Source: Mycolicibacterium sp. YH-1
GTDB taxonomy: Bacteria > Actinomycetota > Actinomycetes > Mycobacteriales > Mycobacteriaceae
Length of the DNA: 64,000 bases
NCBI RefSeq assembly: GCF_022557175.1
Contig: NZ_CP092915.1
Coordinates: 496,001-560,000 of the forward strand
Direction: 5' to 3'
Positions 22,852 to 43,558 of the stretch are shown in pieces. A program made the translations under genes and the position numbers. Position 1 is the stretch's first letter. Each line of letters starts with the position of its first letter. Below the pieces are notes generated by a model. The model saw nothing but the letters and a program-made list of their open reading frames with translations. It was not told the DNA's origin and did no database searches.

Positions 22852-22953
22852 ATGTCCGACCACGACGCGCAAAACGATTCCACCGCAGACGACCTCGTCG
22901 AGGAGACACTGGTGGAGGAAGTCATGATCGACGGGATGTGCGGGGTCTACTGA
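22852..22953 (+). CDS. mftA: Mycofactocin precursor peptide
   Basis: A 33-residue ribosomal peptide too short for normal gene calls. It ends in the family signature IDGMCGVY; the last two residues, valine and tyrosine, are converted by MftC into the redox-active core of mycofactocin. The leader is acidic (DDLVEETLVEE), as usual. It starts 8 bases after TGGAGGT and its stop overlaps the mftB start by one base (TGATG). Confidence 0.95.
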   Translation: MSDHDAQNDSTADDLVEETLVEEVMIDGMCGVY

Positions 22954-23210
22954 TGTTCGACCTCGACCAACGCTGGCTGCTGCACCACCAGGTCGAGCTG
23001 CGGCCCGAACCGTTCGGTGCGTTGCTCTACCACTTCGGCACCCGCAAGCTGTCCTTCCTCAAGGATCTCACCGTCGTCGCCGTGGTGCGTGCGCTTGCGG
23101 ATCATCCGTCGGCGCGGGCCGCGCTGCGTGCCTGTGATGCCGATCGACCTGCGTACGTCAAAGCGCTTTCCACCCTGGCGGATTCGCACATGCTGGTGCG
23201 TGCGTCATGA
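22953..23210 (+). CDS. mftB: Mycofactocin precursor chaperone
   Basis: An 85-residue RRE-type protein that binds the MftA leader and presents it to MftC. It has the usual FDLDQRWLLHHQVELRPEPFGALLYHFGTRK-type beta-strand region (residues 2-33) and a helical C-terminal half. ATG 22953 overlaps the mftA stop by one base, and the mftC start overlaps its stop by four bases, so all three are translationally linked. A longer frame exists upstream but runs through mftA. Confidence 0.93.
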   Translation: MFDLDQRWLLHHQVELRPEPFGALLYHFGTRKLSFLKDLTVVAVVRALADHPSARAALRACDADRPAYVKALSTLADSHMLVRAS

Positions 23211-24355: not shown

Positions 24356-24370
24356 AGGAAGGCCCACGAC

Positions 24371-25546
24371 ATGGCGAAGACCACCTGGTTCGAGACCGTC
24401 GCCGAAGCCCAGCGAAGGGCGGCCAGGCGGCTTCCGCCGAGCGTCTACTCGGCGCTGGTTGCCGGATCCGAGCGCGGCACCACCATCGATGACAACCTGG
24501 CCGCGTTCACCGAACTCGGATTCGCGCCACACCTCGCAGGCCTGTCCGGCAAGCGTGATCTGACGACGACCGTCATGGGGCAGGCGATCTCGCTGCCGGT
24601 GCTCATCTCACCCACAGGCGTTCAGGCGGTGCACCCCGACGGTGAGATCGCCGTCGCACGGGCCGCCGCGGCCCGGGGCACCGTCATCGGCCTGTCCTCC
24701 TTCGCGAGCAAGTCCATCGAGGCGGTGGCCGAGGCCAACCCGCAGACCTTCTTCCAGATGTACTGGACGGGTGGCCGCGACAGACTCGTCGCCCGTATGG
24801 AGCGGGCCAGGGCCGCGGGTGCAGTGGGGCTCATCCTCACCACCGATTGGTCGTTCTCCAGCGGGCGAGACTGGGGCAGCCCTGCGATCCCAGAGAGAAT
24901 TGATCTGCGGGCGATGATTCGCCTTGCACCAGAGGGGCTTCGACGACCACGCTGGCTGGCCGACTTCGTCAAGTCCGGTCGCGTACCCGACCTGACCACC
25001 CCCAACCTCGCCGAGCCGGGCAGCCCCGCGCCGACCTTCTTCGGTGCATACGGCGAATGGATGCAGACCCCGCTGCCGACATGGGACGACATCGCCTGGC
25101 TGCGTGAGCAGTGGGGCGGGCCGTTCATGCTCAAAGGCGTCATGCGCGTCGACGACGCCCGCCGTGCCGTCGACGTCGGGGTCAGCGCGATCTCAGTGTC
25201 CAACCACGGCGGCAACAACCTCGACGGCACACCAGCCCCGATCAGGGCGCTGCCCGCGATCGCCGAGGCAGTGGGTGACGACGTCGAGATTCTGCTCGAC
25301 GGCGGGGTGCGTCGCGGCAGCGATGTGGTCAAGGCACTGGCCCTCGGCGCGCGAGCCGTGATGCTGGGCCGCGCCTATCTGTGGGGGCTCGCCGCCGGAG
25401 GACAGGCGGGCGTGGAGAACGTCCTCGACGTCATCCGAGGCGGGATCGACTCCGCACTGCTCGGATTGGGCCACTCGTCAGCGCACGACCTGAGCCCCGC
25501 CGACCTGGTGATACCCGCCGGCTTCCGGCGTGACCTCGGCGTCTAG
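24371..25546 (+). CDS. mftD: Pre-mycofactocin synthase MftD
   Basis: An FMN-dependent enzyme of the lactate/glycolate oxidase family, 391 residues. In the pathway it oxidatively deaminates the released AHDP intermediate to pre-mycofactocin, forming the redox-active dicarbonyl. Motifs: SPTGVQAVHPDGE near the N-terminus, MYWTGGRDR, MLKGVMRVDDA (substrate and FMN contacts), and the signature SNHGGNNLDGT with the active-site histidine. It lies 15 bases after mftC with AGGAAGG before the ATG. Normally mftE, mftF and mftG follow; here RidA (convergent) follows instead. Confidence 0.94.
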   Translation: MAKTTWFETVAEAQRRAARRLPPSVYSALVAGSERGTTIDDNLAAFTELGFAPHLAGLSGKRDLTTTVMGQAISLPVLISPTGVQAVHPDGEIAVARAAAARGTVIGLSSFASKSIEAVAEANPQTFFQMYWTGGRDRLVARMERARAAGAVGLILTTDWSFSSGRDWGSPAIPERIDLRAMIRLAPEGLRRPRWLADFVKSGRVPDLTTPNLAEPGSPAPTFFGAYGEWMQTPLPTWDDIAWLREQWGGPFMLKGVMRVDDARRAVDVGVSAISVSNHGGNNLDGTPAPIRALPAIAEAVGDDVEILLDGGVRRGSDVVKALALGARAVMLGRAYLWGLAAGGQAGVENVLDVIRGGIDSALLGLGHSSAHDLSPADLVIPAGFRRDLGV

Positions 25547-25563: not shown

Positions 25564-25998
25564 TCAGGCCGGGACGGACGCCGCGACGAGTTCGACCTCC
25601 ACCGGTGCACCAGATGGAAGGCACCGCACGCCAATCGCACTGCGCGCGGGCAGCGCCCGTGAGCCCAGAGTGGCCACGATCGCATCGGAGGCGCCATCGG
25701 CCACGGCGGACAGATCGTGGAAGTCCGGCGCACAGGCGATGTAGACGGTCATGCGCAAGCACCGCACGCCGGCATCCGCGGGCAGCGCCACCCGGACGGC
25801 TGCCAGTGCGTTGGCGGCCGCGAGTCGCGCTGCGGCGCGGGCCTGTTCGATGGAGACCGTCGAGCCGACCTCCCCGGTGATGGTGAGCTGCCCGTCCCGC
25901 CGCGGTGTCATGCCCGCGCTGTACGCGACGCCGGCATGCACGACAGCAGACGCGTAGTCGCCCTGCGGGTCAGGAGGCTGATGGCGCTCAGTCGACAC
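25564..25998 (-). CDS. RidA/YjgF-family enamine-imine deaminase-like protein
   Basis: A 144-residue protein of the RidA superfamily, whose members hydrolyse reactive enamines and imines or act in catabolic operons. It has GVAYSAGMTPRRDG, the ARAAARLAAANALAAV helix and a C-terminal LPARSAIGVRCLP with the conserved arginine of active RidA forms, followed by VEVELVAASV. The arginine in PARSAIGV suggests activity. GTG 25998 overlaps the end of the gamma-glutamyltransferase gene by 11 bases. It is the last gene of the leftward operon and converges with mftD across 17 bases with no terminator seen. Confidence 0.82.
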   Translation of the reverse strand: MSTERHQPPDPQGDYASAVVHAGVAYSAGMTPRRDGQLTITGEVGSTVSIEQARAAARLAAANALAAVRVALPADAGVRCLRMTVYIACAPDFHDLSAVADGASDAIVATLGSRALPARSAIGVRCLPSGAPVEVELVAASVPA

Positions 25999-27586
25999 CG
26001 ATCGCCACCCCCTCCTGTCTGGGATCGGCTGCACCGCTGAGGATTCCGCGTTCGTCTCGGGAGATGATCTGGGCGCTGCCGTCCGCCCCGTACGCGGGTT
26101 GCACCACGACGTGGTGGCCGCGTGTCCGCAACTCGTCGCGGACGGACTCCGCTGTCGTCGCCTCGACCCGCAGTTCGTCGGGTTCGCCGATGACGTGGGC
26201 GTCCGAGCCGGGGTACACGGTGAACCGGGGCGCCGAAACGGCTTGATGCGGGCCCAGCCCGTGGTCGACGAGGTGCGACAGCAGCTGCATGTTCCATTGC
26301 ACCTGGCCGTCACCGCCGGGGGTGTTCCCGACGTGGAGCAGTTGGTTGAGATCGTCGGTGACGATCCAGGCGTTGAGGGTGTGCAGCGGTTTGCGCCGTG
26401 GCGCGACCTCGTTCGGATGGCCGGAGAGCAGGTAGGCGCCGCGCCCGAGCCGATTGTTAAGCACCACACCGGTTCCGGGAATGGAGAACTTGGCGCCGAA
26501 GGTGAGTGCCAGCGAGTGGATGAAGCTCACGGCGCGGCCCTCGGCGTCGACGGCGACCGTGGAGGTGGTGTCACCGGCGAGCACGCCGAACGCGGAGGGG
26601 TCTGCGACGGAGGACTCCAACTGGTCACGCTGGGACTGAATCCGGCTGGGGGCGAGCACATCGTGAGCGCCGGTGTTATCGCTGCCGCACAGTTCGAAAC
26701 GGTCCCGAAAGGCAAGTCGCGCGGCGCGCGCCATCCGGTCGATCGCCTGGGCGCCGAGCCACGACATGGAACCGACGACACCGTCGCACAACGCCGCCTG
26801 CTGCAGCATCATCCAGCCGGCAGAGGGCAGCGGGGTCTGGTGCACGAGCGCACCGCCGTATCGCGCCGTGATCGCCGGCTCCGCATCCACCGACGCGCCT
26901 GCCGCCCATTCGTCACCGCTGAACGGGGCGCCGCCTGCGGTCAGCGCCGTGACGGCTCGTTCGGCCAGCTCGCCGTGATAGAAGCCTCGAGGGTCGCGGG
27001 CCAGCTGGCGGATGGTGCGGGCCAGGTCGGGCTGGCGGAGCCGATCCCCGACGTCGACCGCGGTGGATCGTGCGGCGAACACGGCGGCGAGGCCCTCGTC
27101 AGTGCGGATGCTGTCAAAGGCCTCGCGCACGTCCCGGGCGGTCTTGGCCGAACACGGCAGTCCGGTCTCGGCGAGGCGAGCGGCGGGCTCCCACAGCTCT
27201 TCGAGCGCTGTCGTCGCGCCGTGGGCGTGCATCGTGGCGAGTGCCGCGGGCGCACCGGGGACGGTCACGGACAGGGGGCCGTCCAGCGGAATACTCGACA
27301 GGCCCTTGGCGCGGTAGAAGTCAGCGGTGCCCCCGTCTGGCCCGAAACCCGAACCGTTGACCGTCCACACCCGACCGTCGGGTTCCCGGACGATCGCGAA
27401 GGCATCTCCGCCGACTCCGCATTGCCCGGGAAGGGTCAGCCAGGTGACGGCGGCCATGGCGAGGGTGGCATCGATCGCGTTACCGCCCTCGGCGAGCACC
27501 CGCGCGCCGGCGAAGCTCGCGGCCGGATGGCTCGAGCTGACCATACCGCCGGCCGACAGCGCCGGCGGGCGCGCGGGAGCCGTCAT
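25988..27586 (-). CDS. Gamma-glutamyltransferase family protein
   Basis: A 532-residue Ntn-hydrolase of the gamma-glutamyltranspeptidase family, normally autoprocessed before a threonine into two chains. The processing threonine is in LAGDTTSTVAVDAEG (about residue 343), followed by SFIHSLALTFGAKFSIPGTGVVLNNR and the oxyanion GGDGQVQWNMQ region. No signal peptide is visible, which is unlike periplasmic GGT and closer to catabolic or acylase-type members. It sits between Rieske and RidA genes with overlapping ends, so its substrate is probably a pathway intermediate, such as a gamma-glutamyl amide, rather than glutathione. That is inference. Confidence 0.85.
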   Translation of the reverse strand: MTAPARPPALSAGGMVSSSHPAASFAGARVLAEGGNAIDATLAMAAVTWLTLPGQCGVGGDAFAIVREPDGRVWTVNGSGFGPDGGTADFYRAKGLSSIPLDGPLSVTVPGAPAALATMHAHGATTALEELWEPAARLAETGLPCSAKTARDVREAFDSIRTDEGLAAVFAARSTAVDVGDRLRQPDLARTIRQLARDPRGFYHGELAERAVTALTAGGAPFSGDEWAAGASVDAEPAITARYGGALVHQTPLPSAGWMMLQQAALCDGVVGSMSWLGAQAIDRMARAARLAFRDRFELCGSDNTGAHDVLAPSRIQSQRDQLESSVADPSAFGVLAGDTTSTVAVDAEGRAVSFIHSLALTFGAKFSIPGTGVVLNNRLGRGAYLLSGHPNEVAPRRKPLHTLNAWIVTDDLNQLLHVGNTPGGDGQVQWNMQLLSHLVDHGLGPHQAVSAPRFTVYPGSDAHVIGEPDELRVEATTAESVRDELRTRGHHVVVQPAYGADGSAQIISRDERGILSGAADPRQEGVAIGVD

Positions 27587-27942
27587 CCCAAGCCTCTGCG
27601 GGCGCGTCGACTGGGGACGATCGCGGCGTCGCCGGGATCCACGCCGACGAAGATCTCACCGTCGCGTTCCTCGACGGGATAGGTCTTGATGGGCACGGTC
27701 GCGGGCGGGCAGATGGGTTCACCGGTCTTCAGATCGAATGCGCTGCCGTGGCAGGAACATCCGATACCGTCGTCGACCAGCTTCCCCGATGACAGCAGGC
27801 AGTCCAGATGGGTGCAGTAGTTCGACGTCGCATATGCGGTGCCGTCCAGGCGGGCCACCGCGAACTCGTGGTCGCCGGCGAAGAACCGTCGCACCATGCC
27901 CTCCGGCACCTGCCCGGACCGGGCGACTCGCTTGAATTCCAT
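27583..27942 (-). CDS. Rieske-type [2Fe-2S] ferredoxin (second of the operon)
   Basis: A 119-residue small Rieske protein. The cluster ligands are C43-x-H45 (YCTHLDC) and C62-x2-H65 (GCSCHGSAFD). It has the usual GEPICPPATVPIKTYPVEERDGEIFV C-terminal part and resembles the ferredoxins of Rieske dioxygenase systems. It overlaps the gamma-glutamyltransferase gene by four bases and follows the aldehyde dehydrogenase stop by 26 bases. The operon thus encodes two Rieske ferredoxins but no Rieske oxygenase large subunit. Confidence 0.88.
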   Translation of the reverse strand: MEFKRVARSGQVPEGMVRRFFAGDHEFAVARLDGTAYATSNYCTHLDCLLSSGKLVDDGIGCSCHGSAFDLKTGEPICPPATVPIKTYPVEERDGEIFVGVDPGDAAIVPSRRARRGLG

Positions 27943-27968
27943 TGCAATCTCCGTATTTTGGTGAACAG

Positions 27969-29408
27969 TCAGGCGACTGGATTGAGATAGACGGTTTTCT
28001 CGAGCGTGTAGAACCCCATCATCGACGGGCCCGCCTGTTCCTTGAAGGTCTGGGTGCTCGACGCCTTGTACCCGCCGAACGGCGCGTTCATGGCCATCCC
28101 CGTCGTCGGCTGGTTGATCTTCACCAGACCACTCCTCGACCGGGACGCGAATTGCGTTGCGGCGGCGATGTCATTGGTGACGATGGCCGCGCTGAGCCCG
28201 TACTCCGTCGCATTGGCCAGCAGGATCGCCTCGTCGAGGGACACCGCTCGCTGAAAGGCGAGCAGCGGTCCGAAGACCTCCTCGCGGACGATGCGCATCG
28301 TGGGCGTGGTGTCGGAGAAGACCGTCGGGCGGACGAAGAAGCCCCCGCCGCCCACCGTCGTGCCGCCGCAGCGCAGCGTCGCCCCGTCATCCTCACCGGC
28401 ACGCACGTAGGCCAGAAACGTCTCGAGCTGAGCGGCGCTGGCCAGCGGGCCCATGTTGACGCCGGTGTCCGCGCCGGGGCCGACAGACAGCGCCTCGGTC
28501 TTCGCGACGACGCGCTCCAGTAGCTCGTCGTGGACGGCGTCGACGGCGATCACTCGGCTCGTCCCGGTGCACGCCTGGCCGCTGAGACCGAAGGCGCCCT
28601 TGATGATCAGCGCCGCGGCCGCGTCGAGGTTCGCGTCCTCGGCCACCACGACGGGGTTCTTGCCGCCCATCTCGAGCTGCACCCGCCGGTCGGGACCCAC
28701 CTCGCGGTGGATCAACCGTCCCACCCGGGTTGACCCGGTGAACGTGACGGCTGCGACTCGGGGGTCGGCCACCATCGCCGCCCCGGCGTCGGCACCGCCG
28801 TGCACCAGGGCAATCGCGTTCGGCGGCAGCCCGCCGGCCAGCATCGCCTCGACCAGGCGCTGGCCCATCAGCGGCGTGACCTCAGACGGTTTGAACAGCA
28901 CCGGGTTACCCGCGGCGAGGGCAGGGCCGAGCTTGCGTGACGGGATGTTCAACGGGAAGTTCCACGGGGTGATCGCAGCGACGATGCCCACCGGCTCGCG
29001 CAGTGTGTACACCAGGCCGGCCCCGGCCGCGGGGTAGGTGTCCCCGGTGGTGCGGGTGGCCTCGCCTGCGTAGAACCGGAGATTCGCCGGTGTCCGGCTG
29101 ACCTCCATGGTCGCCTCGGCGGTGGTCTTGCCCTCCTCCCGGACGAGTTCGGCGATCAATTCGGCAGACCTCGACTCGAGGTGCGTCGCCGCAGACTCCA
29201 GGATTGCTGCCCGACGCTCCGGCGAGGTCGCGGCCCATTCGGGTGCGGCCTTGTCGAGTGCGTCGATGGCGCCGCGGACGTCGGCCGCGCCTGAGGCCGG
29301 GAAGCTGCCGATCACGTCGTCCTGGCAGGCCGGATTGCGGCGTTCAAACGTCTCGCCGGAAACCGCTGGCACCCAACGGCCGTCGATGAAATTGGCACCC
29401 TCGAACAT
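27969..29408 (-). CDS. NAD(P)-dependent aldehyde dehydrogenase
   Basis: A 479-residue aldehyde dehydrogenase superfamily enzyme, oxidising an aldehyde to an acid. Motifs are ITPWNFPLNIPSRK, VTFTGSTRVG, the glutamate in VQLEMGGKNPVVV and the catalytic cysteine in SGQACTGTSRV. The C-terminal SSTQTFKEQAGPSMMGFYTLEKT is typical of the gamma-carboxymuconic/ketoglutarate-semialdehyde branch, but substrate assignment is unsafe. ATG 29408 overlaps the ferredoxin reductase stop by one base. It should handle the aldehyde made by the oxygenase or amine steps of this operon. Confidence 0.88.
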   Translation of the reverse strand: MFEGANFIDGRWVPAVSGETFERRNPACQDDVIGSFPASGAADVRGAIDALDKAAPEWAATSPERRAAILESAATHLESRSAELIAELVREEGKTTAEATMEVSRTPANLRFYAGEATRTTGDTYPAAGAGLVYTLREPVGIVAAITPWNFPLNIPSRKLGPALAAGNPVLFKPSEVTPLMGQRLVEAMLAGGLPPNAIALVHGGADAGAAMVADPRVAAVTFTGSTRVGRLIHREVGPDRRVQLEMGGKNPVVVAEDANLDAAAALIIKGAFGLSGQACTGTSRVIAVDAVHDELLERVVAKTEALSVGPGADTGVNMGPLASAAQLETFLAYVRAGEDDGATLRCGGTTVGGGGFFVRPTVFSDTTPTMRIVREEVFGPLLAFQRAVSLDEAILLANATEYGLSAAIVTNDIAAATQFASRSRSGLVKINQPTTGMAMNAPFGGYKASSTQTFKEQAGPSMMGFYTLEKTVYLNPVA

Positions 29409-30640
29409 CACTGCACCGCCTCTTCCGTGTCGACGAGATCCCATAGGTCGGTGTCCTCGTCGGCGAGCACCGTGGCCTCGACGGGGCGGCCGAGTAGTTC
29501 ACGCGCAACCATCACGTCGTCTCCGCGGTCAATCGCGAACGCAGCACAGAGGATGCCGTCGTCGACATAGAAGGCGGTGAAGTCCCGCTCGGCGGGGTTA
29601 CCGCGGATGACGATGTCGCAGGTTTGCGTTGCGGCACCGAGGAACTGGATGTTGTGGTCGAACTGGTCCGACCAGAACCAGCTCGCCTCGTCTGAGACGG
29701 CGTCGCGACCGAGCATGGCGTTGGCGACCGCAGCGCCCTGCTTGTTGGCGTTGTCGAAGTGCTCGAACCGGACGTGGCGCCCGGCCCGTGCGGAGTGGCG
29801 GCGAGCGACGTCGCCTGCGGCGAATACGTTGGGAATCGAGGTCCGGCCCTGCGCGTCCACGACGATCCCGTCGTCGATGTGCAGCCCCGCCTCCGCGGCG
29901 ACAGCGGTGTTGAGCACGATTCCTATCCCCACCACGGCGATGTCGGCTTCCAGCGGCGGCCCGTCGTCGATTTCGATGACGACGTGATCGTTGGTGGTGC
30001 GAAGGGAACGGACCACGGCGTTGGTGCGGAGATCGACGCCCCGATCGCGATGCATTCGCGCGCACTCGGCGCCCATACGTGCGCCGACGACGGCGGTCAG
30101 CGGCACTGCGGCGGCCTCCAGTATCGTGACGTCGACGCCCAGGGCCACTGCTGTGGCGGCGATTTCAAGCCCGATGAACCCGGCGCCGATCAGTACCAGC
30201 CGCTGACCAGGTGTCAAACAACGCTGCAGTCGTTGCGCGTCACCGATGGTGCGTAACTGGTGCACCAGTTCGGGCCGTGGCCCCGGCGCCGGCAGTGTGC
30301 GCGGGCGGCCGCCGGTCGCGATCAGCACCGAATCCGCGAGAATCGGTTTGTGCCCGGCGATTTCGATGGTCCGCGTGTTCGGGTCGAGTCGCGTCACCGC
30401 CGCGCCGGTCAGGACCTCGACAGCGTTGGCGGTCCGCCAGGCCTCGGGCAGTATCTGCAGCGACTCGAGAGTATCGGTGCCGGCGAGGAATTCCTTCGAC
30501 AGCGGTGGCCGCTGGTACGGCATGTGCGGCTCATCGCCGACCAGGATGATGCGTCCGTCGAATCCTCGGCGGCGCAGGGTGCGGGCCGCCACCGCGGCGG
30601 TCTGTCCCGCACCTATGGCGACGAATGTCTGAACGGTCAT
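29408..30640 (-). CDS. FAD-dependent ferredoxin reductase
   Basis: A 410-residue flavoprotein of the rubredoxin/ferredoxin-NAD(P) reductase type that feeds Rieske ferredoxins. The FAD motif is VAIGAGQTAAVAARTLRR, the NAD(P) motif VLIGAGFIGLEIA, and the second FAD segment NVFAAGDVARRHS. MPYQRPPLSKEFL is the standard family element. The reading frame is open far upstream, but ATG 30640 is correct: it begins at the FAD motif and overlaps the Rieske stop by four bases. Electrons would go NAD(P)H to this protein to a Rieske protein to an oxygenase. Confidence 0.92.
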   Translation of the reverse strand: MTVQTFVAIGAGQTAAVAARTLRRRGFDGRIILVGDEPHMPYQRPPLSKEFLAGTDTLESLQILPEAWRTANAVEVLTGAAVTRLDPNTRTIEIAGHKPILADSVLIATGGRPRTLPAPGPRPELVHQLRTIGDAQRLQRCLTPGQRLVLIGAGFIGLEIAATAVALGVDVTILEAAAVPLTAVVGARMGAECARMHRDRGVDLRTNAVVRSLRTTNDHVVIEIDDGPPLEADIAVVGIGIVLNTAVAAEAGLHIDDGIVVDAQGRTSIPNVFAAGDVARRHSARAGRHVRFEHFDNANKQGAAVANAMLGRDAVSDEASWFWSDQFDHNIQFLGAATQTCDIVIRGNPAERDFTAFYVDDGILCAAFAIDRGDDVMVARELLGRPVEATVLADEDTDLWDLVDTEEAVQ

Positions 30641-30990
30641 CCGTGGGCTTCCTCTCCGGCGGTCGTGATGGTGGACAGCTGAGCCGTGGTGTCGACGTAG
30701 ATGGTGTCCGCCTCCACCCGCACCGGGTAGGTGGGTTGGCAGCGGTCCTGGCCCTCCTCGTATCCGGTTTCCAGGTCGAACTGCCACTGGTGGCCCGGGC
30801 AGATCACCTTGCCGTGCAGCAGTGTGCCCTTCGACAGCGACCGATCCTGGTGGATGCAGGAGTCCGCCATCGCGTACACCCGCCCGGCCGCGGCGAAGAG
30901 TGCGACGGCCACACCGCCGCACTCGACCCGCAGTTTGCGGCGACGATTCAGGTCTGTGATCGTCGCCACCGCAATCCATTCCGCGGTCAT
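30637..30990 (-). CDS. Rieske-type [2Fe-2S] ferredoxin (first of the operon)
   Basis: A 117-residue Rieske protein with ligands C45-x-H47 (SCIHQD) and C64-x2-H67 (ICPGHQWQFD). It is of the small ferredoxin type used by oxygenases and is only distantly similar to the second Rieske gene at 27583. ATG 30990 begins a compact domain; the frame upstream to 31161 is non-coding shadow of the preceding gene. It opens a six-gene leftward run with overlaps of 1-11 bases and one 26-base gap. An 11-pair inverted repeat lies 25 bases upstream. Confidence 0.88.
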   Translation of the reverse strand: MTAEWIAVATITDLNRRRKLRVECGGVAVALFAAAGRVYAMADSCIHQDRSLSKGTLLHGKVICPGHQWQFDLETGYEEGQDRCQPTYPVRVEADTIYVDTTAQLSTITTAGEEAHG

Positions 30991-31014
30991 GCCGGGTACC
31001 TTCCTGGCCAGGCG

Positions 31015-31046
31015 CGTGCACCGTGAGCGAGGGCCCACGGTGCACG
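31015..31046. promoter_or_regulatory. Perfect inverted repeat with GTGCAC arms
   Basis: CGTGCACCGTG (31015-31025) and CACGGTGCACG (31036-31046) are perfect complements with ten bases between them. The element lies between the diiron oxidase stop and the first Rieske gene. It contains the GTGCAC core that recurs in the promoters of this island, so it may be an operator; it could equally be a stem-loop that ends or processes the transcript. Confidence 0.6.
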
Positions 31047-31076
31047 ACGCACGGGATGTTCGGCTGCTGGAGCGGC

Positions 31077-31796
31077 TCAGACGGCCGCCGACTCCAGATC
31101 CGGAGCGACGTAGTGGTCGTAGAGGCCCTTGGTGTAGGAGAAGCGCATCTCCGCGCCCCACCGGACCAGTTGCAGGCAGCGCTGCTGCAGCTGTGGGGTG
31201 TCGGCATGGTCGAGCACGATCTGATACCCGCGCTCACCGTGCACCACGTCGGAAGTGATGTGCAGGTCGAAGAACTCGATCTCGTCCTCGGTGAACTTGT
31301 ACACCTCGCGAAGGGGAACGATCTGCTTGGTGTAGATGCTCGGCACCTGCGACTCCAGGCCCACCACCAGCGCTGCCGTCGCGACGACGAAGTGCTCACG
31401 CTGCGACACCGCGTAGCACCACGCCTGCAGGCCACGCGTGATCGGGTTCATGTTCGAGGGATCCTCGATGCGTTCCTTCGTGGTGCCGCACGCCTCGCCG
31501 AACTTGATGAGGAGGTCGGTGTGCCGGATATCGGCGAGTTCCTCCTCGTACATGTTCTGCAGCGTGAAGTCCTTGGCTCCCGTGAACTCGTCGGGGGTGT
31601 TCGAGTAGATGTTGGCCAGGTAGTCGGCGAACGGTCCGACATAGTGGAAGTGGTTCTCGGCCCACCGCGCGAAGTGCCGCTTCTGCAGCTTGCCCTCCGC
31701 CCATGCCTTGCTGAATGAGGCGTTCTTGGCCTCGCGCCCCTTGATGGCGTTCTCGAGTTCTGCGCGAAATTCTTCGCGCCCGAGGAGTGCGGTCAT
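31077..31796 (-). CDS. Heme-oxygenase-like diiron oxidase (HDO; PqqC/CADD-like)
   Basis: A 239-residue all-helical protein of the PqqC/TenA/CADD superfamily. All six ligands of HDO diiron enzymes can be placed: E85 and H92 in EEELADIRH, E148 in VVGLESQ, and H179, D183, H186 in LHITSDVVHG. The spacing (7, 56, 31, 4, 3) is nearly that of Chlamydia CADD (E81, H88, E142, H174, D178, H181, from memory). HDOs use oxygen for decarboxylation, C-C cleavage or N-oxygenation (UndA, BesC, SznF). No pqq genes are present, so this is not PqqC. The nearby Rieske ferredoxins and reductase could supply electrons. Substrate unknown. Confidence 0.82.
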   Translation of the reverse strand: MTALLGREEFRAELENAIKGREAKNASFSKAWAEGKLQKRHFARWAENHFHYVGPFADYLANIYSNTPDEFTGAKDFTLQNMYEEELADIRHTDLLIKFGEACGTTKERIEDPSNMNPITRGLQAWCYAVSQREHFVVATAALVVGLESQVPSIYTKQIVPLREVYKFTEDEIEFFDLHITSDVVHGERGYQIVLDHADTPQLQQRCLQLVRWGAEMRFSYTKGLYDHYVAPDLESAAV

Positions 31797-31967: not shown

Positions 31968-32417
31968 TCAACGCGCGACGGACGCGGTCAGCGCCTCGAA
32001 CTCCGCCAGGATCGCGGCGCCGACGGCCTTGTCCTGCTTCCCGTTGCCGCCGCTGATCCCCACCCCGCCGACGATCTGACCATCGAAGACCAGCGGGAAT
32101 CCGCCGACGAAGATGGCGAACTTCCCGGGCAGCATGTGGCTGATTCCGAACGCCTCGTTCCCCGGCAGCGCCGGCCCGTCCGGCGGCTCGTTGAAAAGGT
32201 GCGTGGCCCGCTCATGTCCGGCGGCGGTGAAGGCCTTGGCGATCGCGATGTCCACACCCGTCAGCCGGGCACCCGGCAGGCGGTGCAGGGCGAGGACGTT
32301 GCCGCCGTCATCGCAGATGCAGAGTGTCTGTTTCACGCCGAGTTCCTCGGCCTTTGCCCGGCCCGCGGCCAGCAGTGGCAGCGCATCGTCCAGGGTGATC
32401 CGGTGAATTTGGTGCAT
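31968..32417 (-). CDS. GlcG/HbpS-family protein
   Basis: A 149-residue protein of the GlcG/HbpS (DUF336) family, recognisable from ITLDDALPLLAAGRAKAEELG, CICDDGGNVLALHRLPGA and the glycine-rich IVGGVGISGGNGKQD. Members bind heme, cobalamin or small ligands or occur as accessory genes in glycolate, diol and aromatic catabolic clusters; the true activity is unclear. It is divergent from the PucR-type gene and points toward the diiron oxidase gene, 171 bases downstream. Confidence 0.8.
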   Translation of the reverse strand: MHQIHRITLDDALPLLAAGRAKAEELGVKQTLCICDDGGNVLALHRLPGARLTGVDIAIAKAFTAAGHERATHLFNEPPDGPALPGNEAFGISHMLPGKFAIFVGGFPLVFDGQIVGGVGISGGNGKQDKAVGAAILAEFEALTASVAR

Positions 32418-32553: not shown

Positions 32554-32581
32554 TGGTGTGGGTGCAGGAGATCCGGTACCG

Positions 32582-34288
32582 ATGAGGTACGAATCGAAAG
32601 AACGCAGGGTGTTCATGACGGCTTCACCGACCAACAACGACCGCATGACGGTGCACGGCCTGCTCGACGAGTCCCTCATGTCGGGCGCTCGCGTGGTAGC
32701 CGGCGCGGACCGGCTCGACGTGGAGCTGAACTGGGTGCTGCCACTCAACGAGGTGTTGTCGCAGCCCGACCGACTCGAGGCGGTCGCGGTCTACGCCCGC
32801 CCCGAGGCGTTGGTCGGCCACAGCGGTGCCATGTCCGCGCTGGTCGCCCGCGGCGCCGCGACCCTCCTGGTGGATGGTGTGTTGCCACTGAGCTTCTCCC
32901 GATCCGTGCTGCCGCCTGCGCTCGTCGTCATCGAGATGGGCGTCCCGGTGGGTTTTGGCGCGCTCAATCGCCTGCTCGCGGAGCGGGCCCTCAACCAGGA
33001 AGTGCACGTGATGCGCTACTCGACGCACGTGCATGACTTGCTCGCGGGGCTTTTCCATCGCGGCGCGGGACTGCGGATCCTGATCCAGGAGGTGTCGAAC
33101 CTGGCGCACAATCCGGCGGTCGCGCTTGACTCGCGCGGCCATCTGGTGGCCCACCACGGCCTGGCCGCCGATGCCGTTGCGCCGCTGGCGGAGTCGGTGG
33201 GCGAGATGCTCGCCGCCGACCTGCCTGCCGCGGCGCGGCGAATCGACGGCCATGACACCCGGGTACAGACCGTCACGGGGCCGCACGACAGCGTCTGGAC
33301 GTGTGTGGCCAGCGCGATTCGGCTCGGCAAGTCGTTCGAGGGGTGGGTGGTGATCCTGGTACCCGACGCCCACCCGGGTAGCCATGACCTCGCGTGTCAC
33401 GTCGTCCTCACCGAACAGGCCACCGCCATTGTCGGCTCGGAGATGCTGCGCCAACGCAGCGTGGATGAGGCCGAGGAGCGCGCCCGCGGCGACTTCGTTC
33501 AAGCCCTCGTGCACGGAAGCTTCTCCAGCGAACATGACATGCGCGCAAGGGCCGAGCATCACGATATCGACCTCGACTCCCGGTTCGGGGTGTTCGTCGC
33601 TCCCGGTGTGCTGCCGCACGGGACGGACAGCCCGACCGCGAGCATGGTGCGTCTTGCCCGGTACGCGGCCGGCGTCGCACCGCACCGATCGGTGCACGCC
33701 TACGTGACAGTTATCGGTGACGTCCTCGTCGTCGTGCGGACGCTGCGCAGCGAACAAGACGATGCGATGCGTGAGGAGATGGACGAGTATGCGTGCGCCA
33801 TGTCATCAGAACTCGAGCGGCGCCGCGGTATGCGGGCACCGGTGTCCTACGGCCGCCCGGCACGCGGTGCCGGAGAGGTCCGCGAGAGCTACCGGGAAGC
33901 ACGTGTCGCCCTCGGCATTGCCCGCCGCCTGCACCGCACCGGCGCAACGTCGTATCAAGAGCTGCGCAGCTTCACCGTTCTGGCGCAGATCGCCGATTCG
34001 GAGCACAGCCGCCAGCTGGTGAGAGAAGTGCTGGGGCCGTTGAGGTCCGGACCTGATCTACTCGACACACTCATCGCCTACCTCGCCGAGGGCGGCAACG
34101 TGAACGCGACCGCTCGAGTGCTCAACGTGCACCGCAACACCATGTTGGCCAAGCTGGACCGGATCTCGCGCGCACTCGGGATGGACATTCGTGTCTCGGA
34201 GAACCAGTTCACAGCGTGGCTGGCAATTCGCCTCGGACTACTCGACGAAGTGCAGTCTGCGGTCGATCGTGAGGCCAGCTTCCGCTGA
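32582..34288 (+). CDS. PucR-family transcriptional regulator
   Basis: A 568-residue regulator. The N-terminal PucR domain (TVHGLLDESLMSGARVVAGADRLDVELNWV region, about residues 22-50 onward) probably senses the inducer. A GGDEF-like middle domain has SYREARVALGIARRL. The C-terminal PucR-type helix-turn-helix contains YLAEGGNVNATARVLNVHRNTMLAKLDRI. Such proteins activate genes for purine, amine or amino acid breakdown. ATG 32582 follows AGGAG at 11 bases; ATG 32615, after AGGG, is an equal alternative and would cut 11 residues. Its stop abuts the convergent MFS stop with no base between. It is the only local regulator of the island and the likely reader of the TGCACA motif. Confidence 0.85.
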   Translation: MRYESKERRVFMTASPTNNDRMTVHGLLDESLMSGARVVAGADRLDVELNWVLPLNEVLSQPDRLEAVAVYARPEALVGHSGAMSALVARGAATLLVDGVLPLSFSRSVLPPALVVIEMGVPVGFGALNRLLAERALNQEVHVMRYSTHVHDLLAGLFHRGAGLRILIQEVSNLAHNPAVALDSRGHLVAHHGLAADAVAPLAESVGEMLAADLPAAARRIDGHDTRVQTVTGPHDSVWTCVASAIRLGKSFEGWVVILVPDAHPGSHDLACHVVLTEQATAIVGSEMLRQRSVDEAEERARGDFVQALVHGSFSSEHDMRARAEHHDIDLDSRFGVFVAPGVLPHGTDSPTASMVRLARYAAGVAPHRSVHAYVTVIGDVLVVVRTLRSEQDDAMREEMDEYACAMSSELERRRGMRAPVSYGRPARGAGEVRESYREARVALGIARRLHRTGATSYQELRSFTVLAQIADSEHSRQLVREVLGPLRSGPDLLDTLIAYLAEGGNVNATARVLNVHRNTMLAKLDRISRALGMDIRVSENQFTAWLAIRLGLLDEVQSAVDREASFR

Positions 34289-35665
34289 TCAGGTCGGTTG
34301 CGGGTCCGGTCCGACGAAGGACCCGGCCAGGCCCAGAGCGACGACGACCGCTGATGCGGCGAACACCGCCGGATACGTCGACACCTCGAGCGCCACCGCC
34401 ACCCACGCCGCCCCCATCGCAGAACCGGTGAACCTGACCAGGTTGTACAGGCCAAGACCGGTGCCATCGGCCCCCGCGGGCGAACGGGTCGCGCCGGTGG
34501 CCGCGGGTGTCTGCACCAGTGCGATTCCCGTACCGGTCACGACGAGGAGGGTGATCAGCACGGCAGGCACGAGTCGTTCCTGGGCCACCCCGACCGTCAG
34601 CGCGATCTGCGCGAGCAGGAGGACCACGAGTCCGGTCCGCAGTACCCGCCTCGGACGCAGCCGGTCGAGCCAACGTCCCACCAGGGGTCCGAGCAGCACC
34701 ATCGTGGCCGGTACCGCGAACAACACCACGCCCGCCATCGACGTGGACGAGCCCCTGCCGACGAGGTAGAGCGGGATCGCCAACAAAGTTGCACCCAGGC
34801 AGAACATCTGGGCGAAGCCGGCCAGGGTGCTGCGCGCGAACCGTGACTCCGCGACGAGGCGGATCCGCACGAAGGGATGCTCCACCCGTGCGCAATGCCA
34901 GGCGAACCAGGCCAGCGCCGCAAACGCGGCCGCCACCATTCCGCCGACAGCCCAGACCGGGATGTCGGGCCGCGGGATCAGCGCCAGCCCCAGCACCAGC
35001 ATCGCCGTTCCCACAGTCAGCGCGGCAGCACCGGCGACGTCGAAGGGCATCCGGGCGCCGGGATAGGACGGGATGTAGCGCAGAGCCCCGACGAATCCGG
35101 CCAGCGCCACCGGAACCAGTGGTACGAATACCCAACGCCATCCCCAGGTGTCGGCGACCAGCCCACCCATCGTCGGCCCGATCGCCTGGCCGAAACCGTT
35201 CACCGATGCCCACGCTCCCATCGCACGGCCGCGGCCCTCGGTTGAGAACATCCAACTGATCAGACCCATCACTGCCGGTCCGAACGCGGCCGCGGCAACG
35301 CCCCCCAACGTGCGCCACCCGATCAACAGGGGCAATGACGGTGCTGTCGCGGCACCGATCGCACACACCGCGGTGCCGAGCAGCGCCGCGCAGTAGATGC
35401 GTCGTCGGCCGAACCGGTCGCCGACCCAGCCGGCCAGCGGCATGGTCGCCGCCATCGCCAGCAGAAAGCCGACCACCACGAACACGCCGCTGCCCAGCGG
35501 GGCGTCGAACTCGTCGAGTATCGCGCCGAGTGGGACGTTGACGACGTTGTTGCTCACCGTCCCGACCAGTGTCCCCGCGAGCAGCGCGGCAAGGCCCAGC
35601 GGCGTGCCCGTGTCCGGATCCACCACGGGCGGATTCGTCTCAGCTGAGGAGCGTACCTCGGTCAT
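34289..35665 (-). CDS. MFS transporter, DHA2-like
   Basis: A 458-residue membrane protein with 12 or more predicted helices. The major facilitator signature is GWVGDRFGRRRIYCAALLG between helices 2 and 3, followed by GWRTLGGVAAAAFGPAVMGLI and a motif-C-like GQAIGPTMGGLVADTWGWRW, typical of drug/proton antiporters. It could export toxic intermediates of the island or be a metabolite carrier. It is divergent from the permease gene at 36023, and its stop abuts the stop of the PucR gene. Confidence 0.85.
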   Translation of the reverse strand: MTEVRSSAETNPPVVDPDTGTPLGLAALLAGTLVGTVSNNVVNVPLGAILDEFDAPLGSGVFVVVGFLLAMAATMPLAGWVGDRFGRRRIYCAALLGTAVCAIGAATAPSLPLLIGWRTLGGVAAAAFGPAVMGLISWMFSTEGRGRAMGAWASVNGFGQAIGPTMGGLVADTWGWRWVFVPLVPVALAGFVGALRYIPSYPGARMPFDVAGAAALTVGTAMLVLGLALIPRPDIPVWAVGGMVAAAFAALAWFAWHCARVEHPFVRIRLVAESRFARSTLAGFAQMFCLGATLLAIPLYLVGRGSSTSMAGVVLFAVPATMVLLGPLVGRWLDRLRPRRVLRTGLVVLLLAQIALTVGVAQERLVPAVLITLLVVTGTGIALVQTPAATGATRSPAGADGTGLGLYNLVRFTGSAMGAAWVAVALEVSTYPAVFAASAVVVALGLAGSFVGPDPQPT

Positions 35666-36022: not shown

Positions 36023-37609
36023 ATGGACACGCATATCACCGTGGCGCACTGGATCTATCTAGCCGGCATCGTCGTCATTCTCATCACGATGGCGGTACGT
36101 AAGAACATCGTCGTGCCCGCAGTCACCGGGACGATGCTGACCGCATGGGCGTTCTCCGGCAGCATCGTCACGGGCCTGTCGTCGATCTTCAACGCCAGCC
36201 TGGTCGCGGCGAAGGAGCTGTTCAACATCTTCCTGATCATCGCGTTGGTGACCGCGATGCTCGGCGCGCTGCGACAGATGGGCGCAGACAAGCTCATGGT
36301 CACACCGTTTCGTCGTGTTATGCGCACCGGAACCAGCAGTTTCATCGTGTTGGCGGTCGTCACGTACGTGATCTCGTTGTTCTTCTGGCCGACGCCCGCC
36401 GTACCGCTGGTGGGCGCCGTGCTCATTCCGGTCGCCATCCGGGCCGGCCTGTCGCCCCTGTCGGTCGGCATGGTGATCGCCATCGCAGGGCAGGGTATGG
36501 CCCTGTCGGCGGACTACATCATCAAGGTCGCCCCCGGTATCTCCGCCAAGGCCGCAGGCGTCGACCCGGACGCCGTCGCGGACAAGGCACTGGTCCTCTC
36601 GCTGATCGTCGGCGTGACAGCGCTGATCATCACCTTCGTGATGCAGCGACGCACCTGGCGCACGCCGTCGGCGGACCTGCTCGTCGCCTGGGAGAACGAG
36701 GCCGACCGTCTGGGGATCGAACCGATCGACGAGTCGGCTCGGCGCACGGATGGAGATCAGGACACCGGCGGTGCAGCGGATGCGCCCACCCCTCGGCCCC
36801 CCGTTCCGGTCGCCGACGGCTCGACGGCAACCGAACCCGTCACCCGCACGGCGACGGCGGTGCTGTCCGCTCCGGATGTGGATCAAGGTTTGCCGCCAAA
36901 GGTGTTGCCTTCGAAGATCTTTGCAATACTCGTGCCGCTGGTCTACCTCGGCTTCATCGTCTACCTGCTGCTCGGCAAGTTCACGACAGCCGTCCCACCG
37001 CTCAAGGGCGGCGACGCCGCAGCGATCGTCGGGGGCCTCGCCGCCATCATCCTGTTCGCCGCCTCCGCCACCAACGACAAGCGCAACTTCCTGGAAACCT
37101 CCTCTCGGCACGTGGTCGACGGTTTGGTGTTCGCGTTCAAGGCGATGGGCATCGTGCTGCCGATCGCGGGATTCTTCTTCATCGGAAACGGCGACTTCTC
37201 CGGTGCGATCCTCGGTATGCCAGAGGGTGTTCCGGGGCCGGCGATTCTCTTCGACCTCATCAACGCCGCGCAGTCACACCTGTCTCCGAACCCGTTCGTC
37301 ACCTCGTTCGGCATCCTGCTCGTCGGCCTCATCGCCGGTCTCGAGGGCTCCGGTTTCAGCGGCCTGCCACTGACCGGTTCGCTTGCGGGCGCGCTCGGTC
37401 CGGCCGTCGGGATGGATCCGAGCACACTGGCGGCCATCGGGCAGATGGGCAATATCTGGTCCGGCGGCGGCACCCTCGTCGCGTGGTCGTCGCTGATCGC
37501 GGTGGCCGGTTTCGCCCGAGTTCCGGTCCTCACCCTCGCGCGGAAGTGCTTCCTGCCCGTCATGGCCGGACTGGTGCTATGCACCCTGTTCGCCATCCTG
37601 GTGTTCTGA
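36023..37609 (+). CDS. Multi-pass permease, ion-transporter type (paralogue 1)
   Basis: A 528-residue membrane protein with about 12 helices in two halves, split by a long polar linker (about residues 210-295, rich in T, P and D). Recurrent elements are FFWPTPAVPLVGAVLIPVAIR, IAIAGQGMALSADYIIKVAP and GSGFSGLPLTGSLAGALG. It resembles GntP/DctM-like ion-coupled carboxylate transporters in layout, but I cannot assign a family with certainty. The gene at 41981 encodes a clear paralogue with the same three motifs. Its promoter region carries the TGCACA cluster. It probably imports the substrate of the island. Confidence 0.75.
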   Translation: MDTHITVAHWIYLAGIVVILITMAVRKNIVVPAVTGTMLTAWAFSGSIVTGLSSIFNASLVAAKELFNIFLIIALVTAMLGALRQMGADKLMVTPFRRVMRTGTSSFIVLAVVTYVISLFFWPTPAVPLVGAVLIPVAIRAGLSPLSVGMVIAIAGQGMALSADYIIKVAPGISAKAAGVDPDAVADKALVLSLIVGVTALIITFVMQRRTWRTPSADLLVAWENEADRLGIEPIDESARRTDGDQDTGGAADAPTPRPPVPVADGSTATEPVTRTATAVLSAPDVDQGLPPKVLPSKIFAILVPLVYLGFIVYLLLGKFTTAVPPLKGGDAAAIVGGLAAIILFAASATNDKRNFLETSSRHVVDGLVFAFKAMGIVLPIAGFFFIGNGDFSGAILGMPEGVPGPAILFDLINAAQSHLSPNPFVTSFGILLVGLIAGLEGSGFSGLPLTGSLAGALGPAVGMDPSTLAAIGQMGNIWSGGGTLVAWSSLIAVAGFARVPVLTLARKCFLPVMAGLVLCTLFAILVF

Positions 37610-37617
37610 TTCCGCTG

Positions 37618-38340
37618 ATGCGACAACCTGATCGGCCGCAGCTGGCCCTAGCCTCCATGATCGCTCTGACCTTCGTCACAGGCGTCGTCGACGCGGTCGG
37701 ATTCCTCGGACTCGACCGCGTGTTCACCGGCAACATGACGGGCAACATCGTCATCCTCGGCATGGGCGTCGCAGGTGCCGATGAACTGCCCGTACTGGGC
37801 CCCGCGGTGGCCCTGGCCGGATTCACCGCCGGCGCCTTCGCCGCGGGCTGGGTGCTGAGAGATCGCCCCGCCGGATCGCCTGCGTCCACCTGGGACCTGC
37901 GCGTCACCGTCCTGCTGAGTGTGGGCGCGGCGGTCCTGCTCGCATTGACCGTCGTCGCCGTCGTCATGGAGAACTTCGGCACGCACATGCAGGTGGTCAT
38001 CGCCACTGCCATCGCCGCGGTGATGGGTCAGCAAGCCATGGTCGCACGCAAGCTGGCGGTGAAGGACATGACCACTGTCGTGGTGACCTCCACATTGACG
38101 AGCCTGGCCGGTGAGACCTGGGTACGCGGGACGTCGGGCGCCATCGTCAACCGCAGGTTCAGCGCGATCCTCGTCATCTTCCTCGGCGCGCTGGCCGGTG
38201 CGGCGCTGCTGCAGATCCACATGGCCATCCCGCTGGGCGTTGCCGCCGCGGGCACCGTGGTCGTGGTGATCACCGGGCACCTTCTGTTACGCGAAAAGCG
38301 AGTCAGAAGACCCGATTTCGCTGAGACGAACCGCTCCTAG
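37618..38340 (+). CDS. DUF1275 (YoaK-family) membrane protein
   Basis: A 240-residue protein with about six transmembrane helices and the DUF1275 hallmarks TFVTGVVDAVGFLGLDRVFTGNMTGN-like start (residues 18-43) and later ATAIAAVMGQQAM and TSTLTSLAGE. Function is unknown; members are often beside transporters. It begins eight bases after the permease stop and is surely cotranscribed with it. The stop overlaps the convergent amidase stop within CTAG. Confidence 0.85.
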   Translation: MRQPDRPQLALASMIALTFVTGVVDAVGFLGLDRVFTGNMTGNIVILGMGVAGADELPVLGPAVALAGFTAGAFAAGWVLRDRPAGSPASTWDLRVTVLLSVGAAVLLALTVVAVVMENFGTHMQVVIATAIAAVMGQQAMVARKLAVKDMTTVVVTSTLTSLAGETWVRGTSGAIVNRRFSAILVIFLGALAGAALLQIHMAIPLGVAAAGTVVVVITGHLLLREKRVRRPDFAETNRS

Positions 38341-39686: not shown

Positions 39687-39699
39687 CGAGCCTGTGGAG

Positions 39700-41980: not shown

Positions 41981-43558
41981 TCACCAGATGAGCGCCGCCA
42001 GGGCCACACTCAGGATCAGGCCGGACACGACGGGCACGAACAGCCGGCGGGCAAGCGTCGTCACGGGTATGCCGGTGAAGCCGGCGACGGCGACGAGCGA
42101 GGACCAGATGATGAGCGTTCCGCCACCGGTCCATCCGGCCGCGTTCTGCGCTATGGCCGCCAGGGTGGCGGCGTCCGCGCCGGACGAGTGGGCGAGCGCG
42201 TCAGCCAGTCCTCCGGTGAACGGAAGGCCGGCCCAGCCCGAACCATCCAGACCGATGAGCATGCCGGCGATCAGCATGGCGAACATCACCAGCACCGGAT
42301 TGTCGGGGATGAAACGCTCACCGCTGCCGATGATGTCGAAGAGGAACGCGGGTGGTTCGACGTCCTCGGGGAGCAGCATGATGCGGCCGGCGAAGTCCGA
42401 GATGCCGATGAGCACGAAGCCGGCGACCGGGATGACGACACCCATGGCGCGGAAGGCGACCACCAGTCCGTCGACGAAGTGTTGCCCGGTCCGGTCCAGA
42501 CGGTCGGTACCTCCGGTGGTGAGGCTGACGACGAGTGTGAGGAGCAGGGCGAGGCCCCCGACGAGGGCGGCGCCGCTGCCGCTCTCCACCGGCGGTACCC
42601 AGTCGGTGAGCCTGCCGAGCAATATGAACGCGACCAGCGCACCGAAGACAATCGGAACCAGTATGGCGAACAACTTGGCCCGCATCCCGTCGGTGGGCAC
42701 GACATCGTCCGAGAGGTCGACCGATGCGTCGGGTAGCTCGTCTACGTCGTCGGCCGATCCGTTTGTGGACGGAGGCGGGGCGATGACCTGCTCCCTCTTG
42801 GTCAACAACGCCCGGCCGACGGCGGTGGACACGCGATCGCCCAACGTGGCTGTAGCGGCGCCGCCAGCGGTTGCCTCAGCGTCCTGGCGGTTGGCTCGTC
42901 GCGTCGCGGTCAGCACTCGTTCCGTCGACCGAGCGCGGACGTGCAACACGTACGTCATCGTGATGGCGACCGCGCCCACCACCCAGCTGAGGATCAGCGC
43001 CCGGTCGGCGATGAGGCCGGCCGAGACACCCGCTCCGCTGGCCGACAGGCTCGGAGCCACGCCGATCACGTAGTCGGAGGCCAGTGCCATGCCCTGCCCG
43101 GCGATCGCCATCGCCATGGCGGCGGCCAGTGGCGAGAGACCCGTGCGGATGGCGGCAGGCAGCAGTATCGCGGCGATGAGACCAAGGGCTGGAGTCGGCC
43201 AGAAGACCATCGACAGCAGGTACGTGACGCCGAATAGGACGAAGTAGGACAGCGTGCCGTTCTTCATAAGTCGTGCAATGGGATTGATCATCCGCTGCTC
43301 TGCGCCGACCCTCTTCATCGCGCCGAGCATGGCCGTGACCGCGGTCAGAACCAGGAAGATGTTCAAGAGTTCCGTCGTGGCGACCGCGGCTGCACTGAAC
43401 ACGCTGCCGACGCCCTTCAGGAGGTCACCGGTGTACACCCACGTCGTCAGAAACGTCGCGATAATGGCGGGGACCACCACACTCTTTCGCGCGACCATGA
43501 AACCGATCAGCGACAGGATTCCGACGATGTAGACGCCGTGCGCTGCGGTCAGGTGCAT
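41981..43558 (-). CDS. Multi-pass permease, ion-transporter type (paralogue 2)
   Basis: A 525-residue membrane protein, clearly paralogous to the permease at 36023. Shared elements are ELLNIFLVLTAVTAMLGA, MVFWPTPALGLIAAILLPAAIR, MAIAGQGMALASDYVIGVAP and GSGWAGLPFTGGLADAL, with a polar linker between two membrane halves (about 220-290). Family assignment is uncertain, as for paralogue 1. It heads the leftward unit permease-SDR-ALDH-amidase. Its upstream region has a CRP-like palindrome and shares the nine-mer GTGCACTCT with the promoter of paralogue 1. Confidence 0.75.
   Translation of the reverse strand: MHLTAAHGVYIVGILSLIGFMVARKSVVVPAIIATFLTTWVYTGDLLKGVGSVFSAAAVATTELLNIFLVLTAVTAMLGAMKRVGAEQRMINPIARLMKNGTLSYFVLFGVTYLLSMVFWPTPALGLIAAILLPAAIRTGLSPLAAAMAMAIAGQGMALASDYVIGVAPSLSASGAGVSAGLIADRALILSWVVGAVAITMTYVLHVRARSTERVLTATRRANRQDAEATAGGAATATLGDRVSTAVGRALLTKREQVIAPPPSTNGSADDVDELPDASVDLSDDVVPTDGMRAKLFAILVPIVFGALVAFILLGRLTDWVPPVESGSGAALVGGLALLLTLVVSLTTGGTDRLDRTGQHFVDGLVVAFRAMGVVIPVAGFVLIGISDFAGRIMLLPEDVEPPAFLFDIIGSGERFIPDNPVLVMFAMLIAGMLIGLDGSGWAGLPFTGGLADALAHSSGADAATLAAIAQNAAGWTGGGTLIIWSSLVAVAGFTGIPVTTLARRLFVPVVSGLILSVALAALIW

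Follow-up and report, generated by a model that had tools for sequence, protein, structure and literature searches.

Heme-oxygenase-like diiron oxidases/oxygenases (HDOs) were surveyed in a review of March 2026, which counts about a dozen functionally validated members and focuses on natural-product biosynthesis (PMC13108848). How HDOs are reduced in the cell is largely open; in the accessible text of that review, the words "ferredoxin" and "electron donor" occur nowhere, and a figure legend records that MboA needs MboB (PMC13108848). These two proteins from mangotoxin biosynthesis in Pseudomonas are, going by the accessible part of their report (JACS 2026), perhaps the first characterised pair of an HDO and a dedicated redox partner, MboA being a peptide desaturase and MboB a single NADH-dependent flavin/Fe2S2 reductase (PMC13185094). 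The Acinetobacter protein DtpC is an HDO-like protective factor, and "ferredoxin" does not occur in the accessible text of its paper (PMC13232832). Two further proteins with the heme-oxygenase-like fold are CADD, in which a Tyr is reported to be cleaved in a self-sacrificing reaction (PMC11965152), and PqqC, described in the review as working without a metal (PMC13108848). Here, an HDO gene of Mycolicibacterium sp. YH-1 is described that lies in a conserved cassette of soil bacteria, together with genes for two Rieske-type ferredoxins and a ferredoxin reductase, in a 64,000-nucleotide stretch of contig NZ_CP092915.1 (positions 496,001 to 560,000; "the window" below denotes this whole stretch). 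This HDO is likely the terminal oxygenase of the reductase–ferredoxin chain in a catabolic cassette, which would make the system a multicomponent oxygenase with an HDO in the place of a Rieske oxygenase, a P450 or a ferritin-like diiron protein.

An original prediction, made from the sequence of the window, had placed seven genes in the interval 25564..31796, coding for the HDO, the ferredoxins Fd1 and Fd2, the reductase FdR, an aldehyde dehydrogenase (ALDH), a protein of the gamma-glutamyltransferase (GGT) superfamily and a RidA-like protein. All seven were found on the minus strand with unchanged coordinates (Table 1), although the interval leaves conserved partners outside: an EfgA-like HbpS protein, a PucR-type regulator, an MFS protein and a permease lacking a Pfam match are members of the module as well. 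The order of transcription on the minus strand is HbpS-like, HDO, Fd1, FdR, ALDH, Fd2, GGT-like and RidA. The operon is as tightly packed as had been described, with overlaps, based on the likeliest start codons, of 4 bp (Fd1/FdR), 1 bp (FdR/ALDH), 4 bp (Fd2/GGT) and 11 bp (GGT/RidA), and two short gaps measured in the same way, of 86 bp between HDO and Fd1 and 26 bp between ALDH and Fd2.

To compare the neighbourhood across species, a one-genome-per-species scan was carried out, in which 261 HDO relatives were encoded, and the best 80 of these 261 were taken as close relatives. All 80 loci are actinobacterial, and 64 of them are full, with more than 8 kb on both sides of HDO. In every one of the 80 loci, Fd1 is encoded no more than 1 kb downstream of HDO, and in 79 of them FdR follows within 2.5 kb, the exception (L046) being a contig of 3.3 kb. 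Among the 64 full loci, Fd1, FdR and Fd2 are present in all, ALDH and PucR in 63 each, HbpS in 62, RidA in 61, MFS in 60 and GGT, counted where the match spans at least half of the query, in 59. Relatives of the permease occur in 61 of the 80 loci, with a second copy downstream of RidA in 11. The gene order of the window was seen in 39 loci. Simple inheritance does not account for the layout, since the genes also occur in three other arrangements, in loci of the Blastococcus/Prauserella, Pseudonocardia/Amycolatopsis and Actinomadura types; ALDH is just 39–44% identical in some of the rearranged loci.

At the level of the genus, HDO, Fd2 and GGT (thresholds set per protein at E ≤ 1e-40, 1e-30 and 1e-100, respectively) were each found in 23 of 198 genomes, the window's own included, and the set of 23 was identical for all three, although the genomes are related and the 23 occurrences hence not independent of one another. 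Across a sample of the whole phylum, HDO was found at 1e-40 in 2 of 396 genomes, one of them the window's own, and the cassette is therefore patchy. HbpS and HDO are by far the most conserved members, with median identities of 94.9 and 93.3% against 63–84% for the other eight (22 loci, L003–L024). The neighbourhood comparison that the original prediction had called for thus finds HDO conserved with the Rieske operon, and the linkage between HDO and the electron carriers is real.

Linkage alone would also suit carriers that serve a Rieske oxygenase or cytochrome P450 encoded elsewhere, with HDO an accessory or independent member of the operon. FdR and the ferredoxins do belong to the families of Rieske dioxygenase systems (both Rieske motifs are intact, and FdR scores 367 bits against the NCBIfam HcaD model, with a cut-off of 450), and seven proteins matching Ring_hydroxyl_A (PF00848) are encoded elsewhere in the genome. 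However, no PF00848 match was found in the window, in agreement with the earlier description of an operon with two Rieske ferredoxins and a reductase that contains no Rieske oxygenase, and the nearest such protein to a second HDO module of the same genome is ~32 kb away. A motif search over 84 loci recovered open reading frames (ORFs) resembling Rieske oxygenase alpha subunits in only 1 of the 80 actinobacterial loci (L074, ~8 kb from HDO); P450 genes were not searched. The motif was an ad hoc one that works at least once, since it recovered an annotated dioxygenase ~10 kb from HDO in a Caballeronia locus, this single case being its sole validation. Fd1 and FdR follow HDO in 79 of the 80 loci, rearranged layouts included, and HDO is retained where the carriers belong to other families. 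Service to an oxygenase encoded elsewhere is accordingly considered unlikely.

Such a change of carriers is seen in the second module of the same genome (L083), whose HDO (G000:C1:6521374-6522081) is 63% identical to that of the window. It is accompanied by a 64%-identical permease, by one Fer2 and one Rieske ferredoxin (the latter sharing 30% identity with Fd1), by RidA, ALDH, HbpS, GGT, MFS and DUF1275 proteins, and by a protein resembling a reductase, which combines an NAD-binding domain with Fer2 at its C terminus and has no match to an FAD domain. The ALDH, RidA, HbpS and GGT of this module are merely ~31–34% identical to their window counterparts. Betaproteobacterial modules with HDOs of 64–68% identity were found in Caballeronia sp. 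SBC2 (L085, annotated), Cupriavidus metallidurans CH34 (L084) and C. campinensis (L086), the Cupriavidus genes being assigned by tblastn. There, HDO is found with ALDH, HbpS, the permease, a protein of the OCD/mu-crystallin type, a pair of Fer2 ferredoxins and a reductase that has an N-terminal Fer2 domain besides FAD and NAD domains (for the ferredoxins and the reductase, the domains were tested on L085); neither GGT nor RidA was found in these three modules. The ferredoxin genes lie on the strand opposite HDO, adjoining it in L085 and ~3 kb off in L084 and L086. In an actinobacterium of another family (G031; loci L087 and L101), HDOs of 73–74% identity occur with Fer2 and Rieske ferredoxins, GGT-like, OCD, HbpS and ALDH proteins and a RidA-like ORF recognised by eye, and no reductase was visible in the two loci inspected. 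Six plasmid matches to HDO were of HDO type, three of which were examined, and a seventh was pqqC.

Across these modules, HDO, HbpS, ALDH and two small Fe–S proteins persist, whereas the carriers switch family partly or wholly, between Rieske ferredoxins with an HcaD-type reductase, Fer2 and Rieske ferredoxins with a C-terminal-Fer2 reductase, and two Fer2 ferredoxins with an N-terminal-Fer2 reductase. The strongest argument from sequence for carriers in the service of HDO is that their families change while HDO persists. HDO is thus conserved beside reductase and Fe–S carrier genes, as would be looked for in a dedicated redox partner, with other carriers in L083, L084, L085 and L086.

Two features of the small proteins in these modules were also noted. 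The Fer2 ferredoxins of L083 (10717-11037) and of L087, where the gene is flanked by those for HDO and the Rieske ferredoxin and lies on the opposite strand, both carry CxxxxCGTD, in which the third cluster Cys is replaced by Asp; this suggests that the [2Fe-2S] cluster either has an Asp ligand or has been lost. Between the two betaproteobacterial ferredoxins, a protein of ~101–116 amino acids is encoded (L084:8400-8741, L085:11078-11428 and L086:6333-6638; the L085 copy has no Pfam match), which is possibly an effector subunit.

The six proposed metal ligands of HDO (E85, H92, E148, H179, D183 and H186) were read directly at these positions and do not vary among 41 aligned sequences, of which that of the window is one. 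Their spacing is CADD-like, as had been proposed: E-x6-H and H-x3-D-x2-H are identical, and the residues align with the metal ligands of CADD. The structure predicted for HDO matches the CADD fold, and alignment and fold superposition together suggest convergence of the ligands. The heme-oxygenase-like helical fold and the set of three His and three carboxylate ligands would place the protein in the HDO superfamily.

With CADD-type proteins and PqqC as the nearest solved relatives, it might be asked whether HDO makes a cofactor or metabolite, as these do, rather than acting in catabolism. Weak NCBIfam matches to both were obtained, and among the best 120 of 1,260 and the best 120 of 1,385 matches, relatives are labelled "TenA family transcriptional regulator" or "pyrroloquinoline-quinone synthase", the latter being given to many of them by one source. 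However, HDO scores far under the cut-offs of both models (87.3 bits against 200 for CADD, TIGR04305; 45.2 against 240 for PqqC, TIGR02111). Where CADD has Tyr27, which is cleaved, and Lys152 of its active site, HDO has Ser29 and Gln158, both invariant in the 41-sequence alignment. Membership in the CADD family was rejected on these two grounds, and membership in the PqqC family on its score and the six invariant metal ligands. The patchy distribution (2 of 396 genomes phylum-wide and 23 of 198 within the genus), together with the permease, ALDH and PucR/GntR regulators, also has a catabolic look, and a biosynthetic role is held to be quite improbable. A third PF14518 protein is encoded in the genome (G000:C1:244202-244720, L088), with a Pfam score of 187 bits, above that of the module HDO.

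Table 1. Genes of the HDO cassette and its neighbours in the window, with family assignments
Feature	Position	Strand	Details
HbpS/DUF336 protein	31968..32417	-	149 aa; PF03928 1.7e-31; solved relatives 2a2l 3.1e-19, 6bws EfgA 5.1e-18
HDO, heme-oxygenase-like diiron oxidase/oxygenase	31077..31796	-	239 aa; PF14518 2.7e-33
Fd1, Rieske-type ferredoxin	30637..30990	-	117 aa; PF00355 1.4e-14; CIH...CPGH from residue 45
FdR, HcaD-type pyridine-nucleotide ferredoxin reductase	29408..30640	-	410 aa; PF07992 1.1e-64; PF14759 Reductase_C 9.5e-24; two GxGxx-type motifs
ALDH, aldehyde dehydrogenase	27969..29408	-	PF00171 1.4e-147; catalytic Cys/Glu motifs GQAC, LEMGGK
Fd2, second Rieske-type ferredoxin	27583..27942	-	119 aa; PF00355 7.5e-19; CTH...CSCH from residue 43
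GGT-superfamily Ntn hydrolase	25988..27586	-	532 aa; PF01019 4.3e-94; DTT (nucleophile region) from residue 339
RidA-like Rid-family protein, probable imine/enamine deaminase	25564..25998	-	144 aa; PF01042 1.4e-13
PucR-type transcriptional regulator, divergent	32558..34288	+	PF13556 1.2e-17; start codon uncertain
MFS transporter	34289..35665	-	PF07690 3.5e-53
Permease	36023..37609	+	528 aa; without Pfam or NCBIfam match
DUF1275 membrane protein, loosely associated	37630..38340	+	PF06912 1.1e-32; 26 of 80 loci; also adjoins paralogous module (L083:4340-5044)
Second permease, same family, loosely associated	41981..43558	-	44% identical

Of the accessory enzymes, the one first called a gamma-glutamyltransferase is probably misnamed. 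It scores 243.3 bits against TIGR00066, with a cut-off of 357.85, and in an alignment to 2e0w the residues that bind glutamate in classical GGT, an Arg and a Ser-Ser pair (R114 and S462-S463 of the E. coli enzyme), face Ser (NGSG) and His-Thr (PLHTLN); it therefore lends no support to a gamma-glutamyl substrate. The cassette protein, whose best solved matches are 2i3o and 2nlz, is probably not a gamma-glutamyl enzyme, and its sequence points to an amidohydrolase more than to a transpeptidase. A gamma-glutamyl amine route of the aniline/isopropylamine type is weakened by the missing glutamate-binding residues; no glutamine-synthetase-like gene was recognised among the conserved neighbours, no search being aimed at one. 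In the GGT-family paralog at L083:13873-15363, the DTT nucleophile stretch that is clear in the window copy seems to be missing, and this paralog may therefore be inactive or cleave differently.

RidA, a protein that acts on reactive imines, appears by its sequence motif to keep the catalytic Arg in the window copy as Arg119 (ARSAIGV, residues 118-124), equivalent to R105 of E. coli RidA; its nearest solved relative is PA0814. RidA and OCD proteins alternate or coexist across the modules, and since the former would hydrolyse and the latter reduce an imine, this fits an imine product.

Neither permease copy of the window has a Pfam or NCBIfam match. A model of the permease (pLDDT 80) gave as its top Foldseek match 9a59_A (MLEN-METQ; 2.1e-6, TM 0.59/0.65, root-mean-square deviation 6.4 Å), the matched part of which, judged from its length, is presumably MleN, followed by TRAP transporters, ArsB and VcINDY. 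The modelled fold resembles anion/carboxylate carriers of the ion-transporter superfamily, and because many of these matched carriers are for carboxylates, an organic acid would be the likeliest cargo. The permeases, of which three are encoded in the genome (the two in Table 1 and L083:7037-8563) and which accompany HDO modules in two phyla, perhaps form a new family of that superfamily.

Computation establishes the family to which each part belongs, the conservation of the linkage, the fold and ligand set of HDO and the exchange of carrier families; that electrons flow to HDO, that the role is catabolic, that the substrate is a carboxylate and that an imine and an aldehyde are formed is inferred from evidence that is comparative throughout. 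A possible pathway can be drawn from these parts. A nitrogen-containing carboxylate would be imported by the permease, while FdR, reduced by NAD(P)H, would pass electrons through Fd1 and/or Fd2 to diferric HDO. The diferrous enzyme would then activate O2 and oxidise the substrate beside nitrogen or across a C–C bond. ALDH would oxidise the aldehyde product, and the imine product would be hydrolysed by RidA or, in the betaproteobacterial version, reduced by the OCD-family enzyme. The GGT-family hydrolase probably cuts an amide intermediate, the EfgA-like protein may act as a sensor of the aldehyde or as a buffer against it, and PucR would control the cassette. It is plausible that a nitrogenous substrate would yield both imine and aldehyde; confidence in any particular substrate is low, and a lead towards homarine or trigonelline yielded unrelated work only in the open-access literature.

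The same genes might instead serve detoxification, with HDO inactivating a toxic amine or nitrogenous acid, MFS exporting the products and the EfgA-like protein, ALDH and RidA dealing with reactive aldehyde and imine. This would agree with the occurrence of MFS in 60 of the 64 full loci, with the role of EfgA, which is reported to be a formaldehyde sensor (PMC8153426), and with that of RidA. However, the conserved carrier-type permease, ALDH and hydrolase suit catabolism better, as do the neighbouring aldolase-family and CoA-transferase genes in the second module (L083), and detoxification is given a low probability. Taken more broadly, an HDO oxygenase with interchangeable electron-transfer chains, catabolising a nitrogen-containing carboxylate and having its own Pfam-less permease family, is favoured, if modestly, as a widespread architecture in Actinomycetota and Pseudomonadota.

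Other genes lie around the module in the window. At 38337-41921 (minus strand), what looks like a second catabolic operon, coding for an amidase, an SDR and another ALDH, adjoins the second permease copy; among the 80 related loci, the amidase was found in 11 and the SDR in none. Mycofactocin genes adjoin RidA, yet mycofactocin was rejected as part of the system, with mftC in none and mftD in 1 of the 80 loci. The window copies of mftB, mftC and mftD were assigned by NCBIfam and are not part of the HDO module. An NDMA-dependent methanol dehydrogenase (14655-15926; TIGR04266, 967 bits) and the mycofactocin region (22852-25546, plus strand) also lie outside it. The last residues of a short ORF (22852-22953), IDGMCGVY, by eye resemble those of a mycofactocin precursor, with no NCBIfam match for the ORF at 1e-30. 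The ergothioneine genes egtA, egtB, egtD and egtE were recognised by NCBIfam at 9093-14506 (plus strand).

No published description of this cassette was found in the open-access literature within the terms searched. If the proposed role of HDO is true, many genes labelled as TenA regulators or pyrroloquinoline-quinone synthases, as seen among the best 120 matches, would gain a likely role. HDO electron transfer would become directly testable, and HDOs would be extended from natural-product biosynthesis to catabolism.

Among known systems, CADD (CT610, a self-sacrificing p-aminobenzoate synthase) is the nearest to the cassette HDO by fold and among the nearest by sequence. It shares the ligand spacing and differs in its low identity (22%) and in its cleaved Tyr and active-site Lys, which are Ser and Gln in HDO; no redox partner genes are known for CADD. 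PqqC has the same fold and lends its name to HDO relatives in databases, but is described in the accessible review text as metal-free, whereas the six ligands are invariant in HDO. The cassette HbpS protein appears related by sequence to EfgA within the EfgA/HbpS (DUF336) proteins. Three-component Rieske dioxygenases of the HcaCD type, for which BphA3A4 is a further carrier type, use the same reductase and ferredoxin families, with electrons passing from an NADH reductase through a Rieske ferredoxin to the terminal oxygenase; in the cassette the terminal oxygenase would be HDO, and no ring-hydroxylating alpha subunit was found in the cluster. The original view that HDOs usually lack dedicated electron carriers now needs the qualification that MboA and MboB, published in 2026, are such a pair (PMC13185094), and the cassette is therefore not the first HDO with a dedicated redox partner. 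As far as the accessible part of that report goes, both systems genetically pair an HDO with a dedicated redox partner, but MboA/MboB has one reductase in a biosynthetic cluster, whereas the cassette, of catabolic type, has a separate reductase and two Rieske ferredoxins. What is new here is the separate reductase and two ferredoxins on an HDO, the catabolic setting and the occurrence in two phyla, in an HDO subfamily with a complete, genetically linked chain and signs that this chain has been replaced while HDO was kept.

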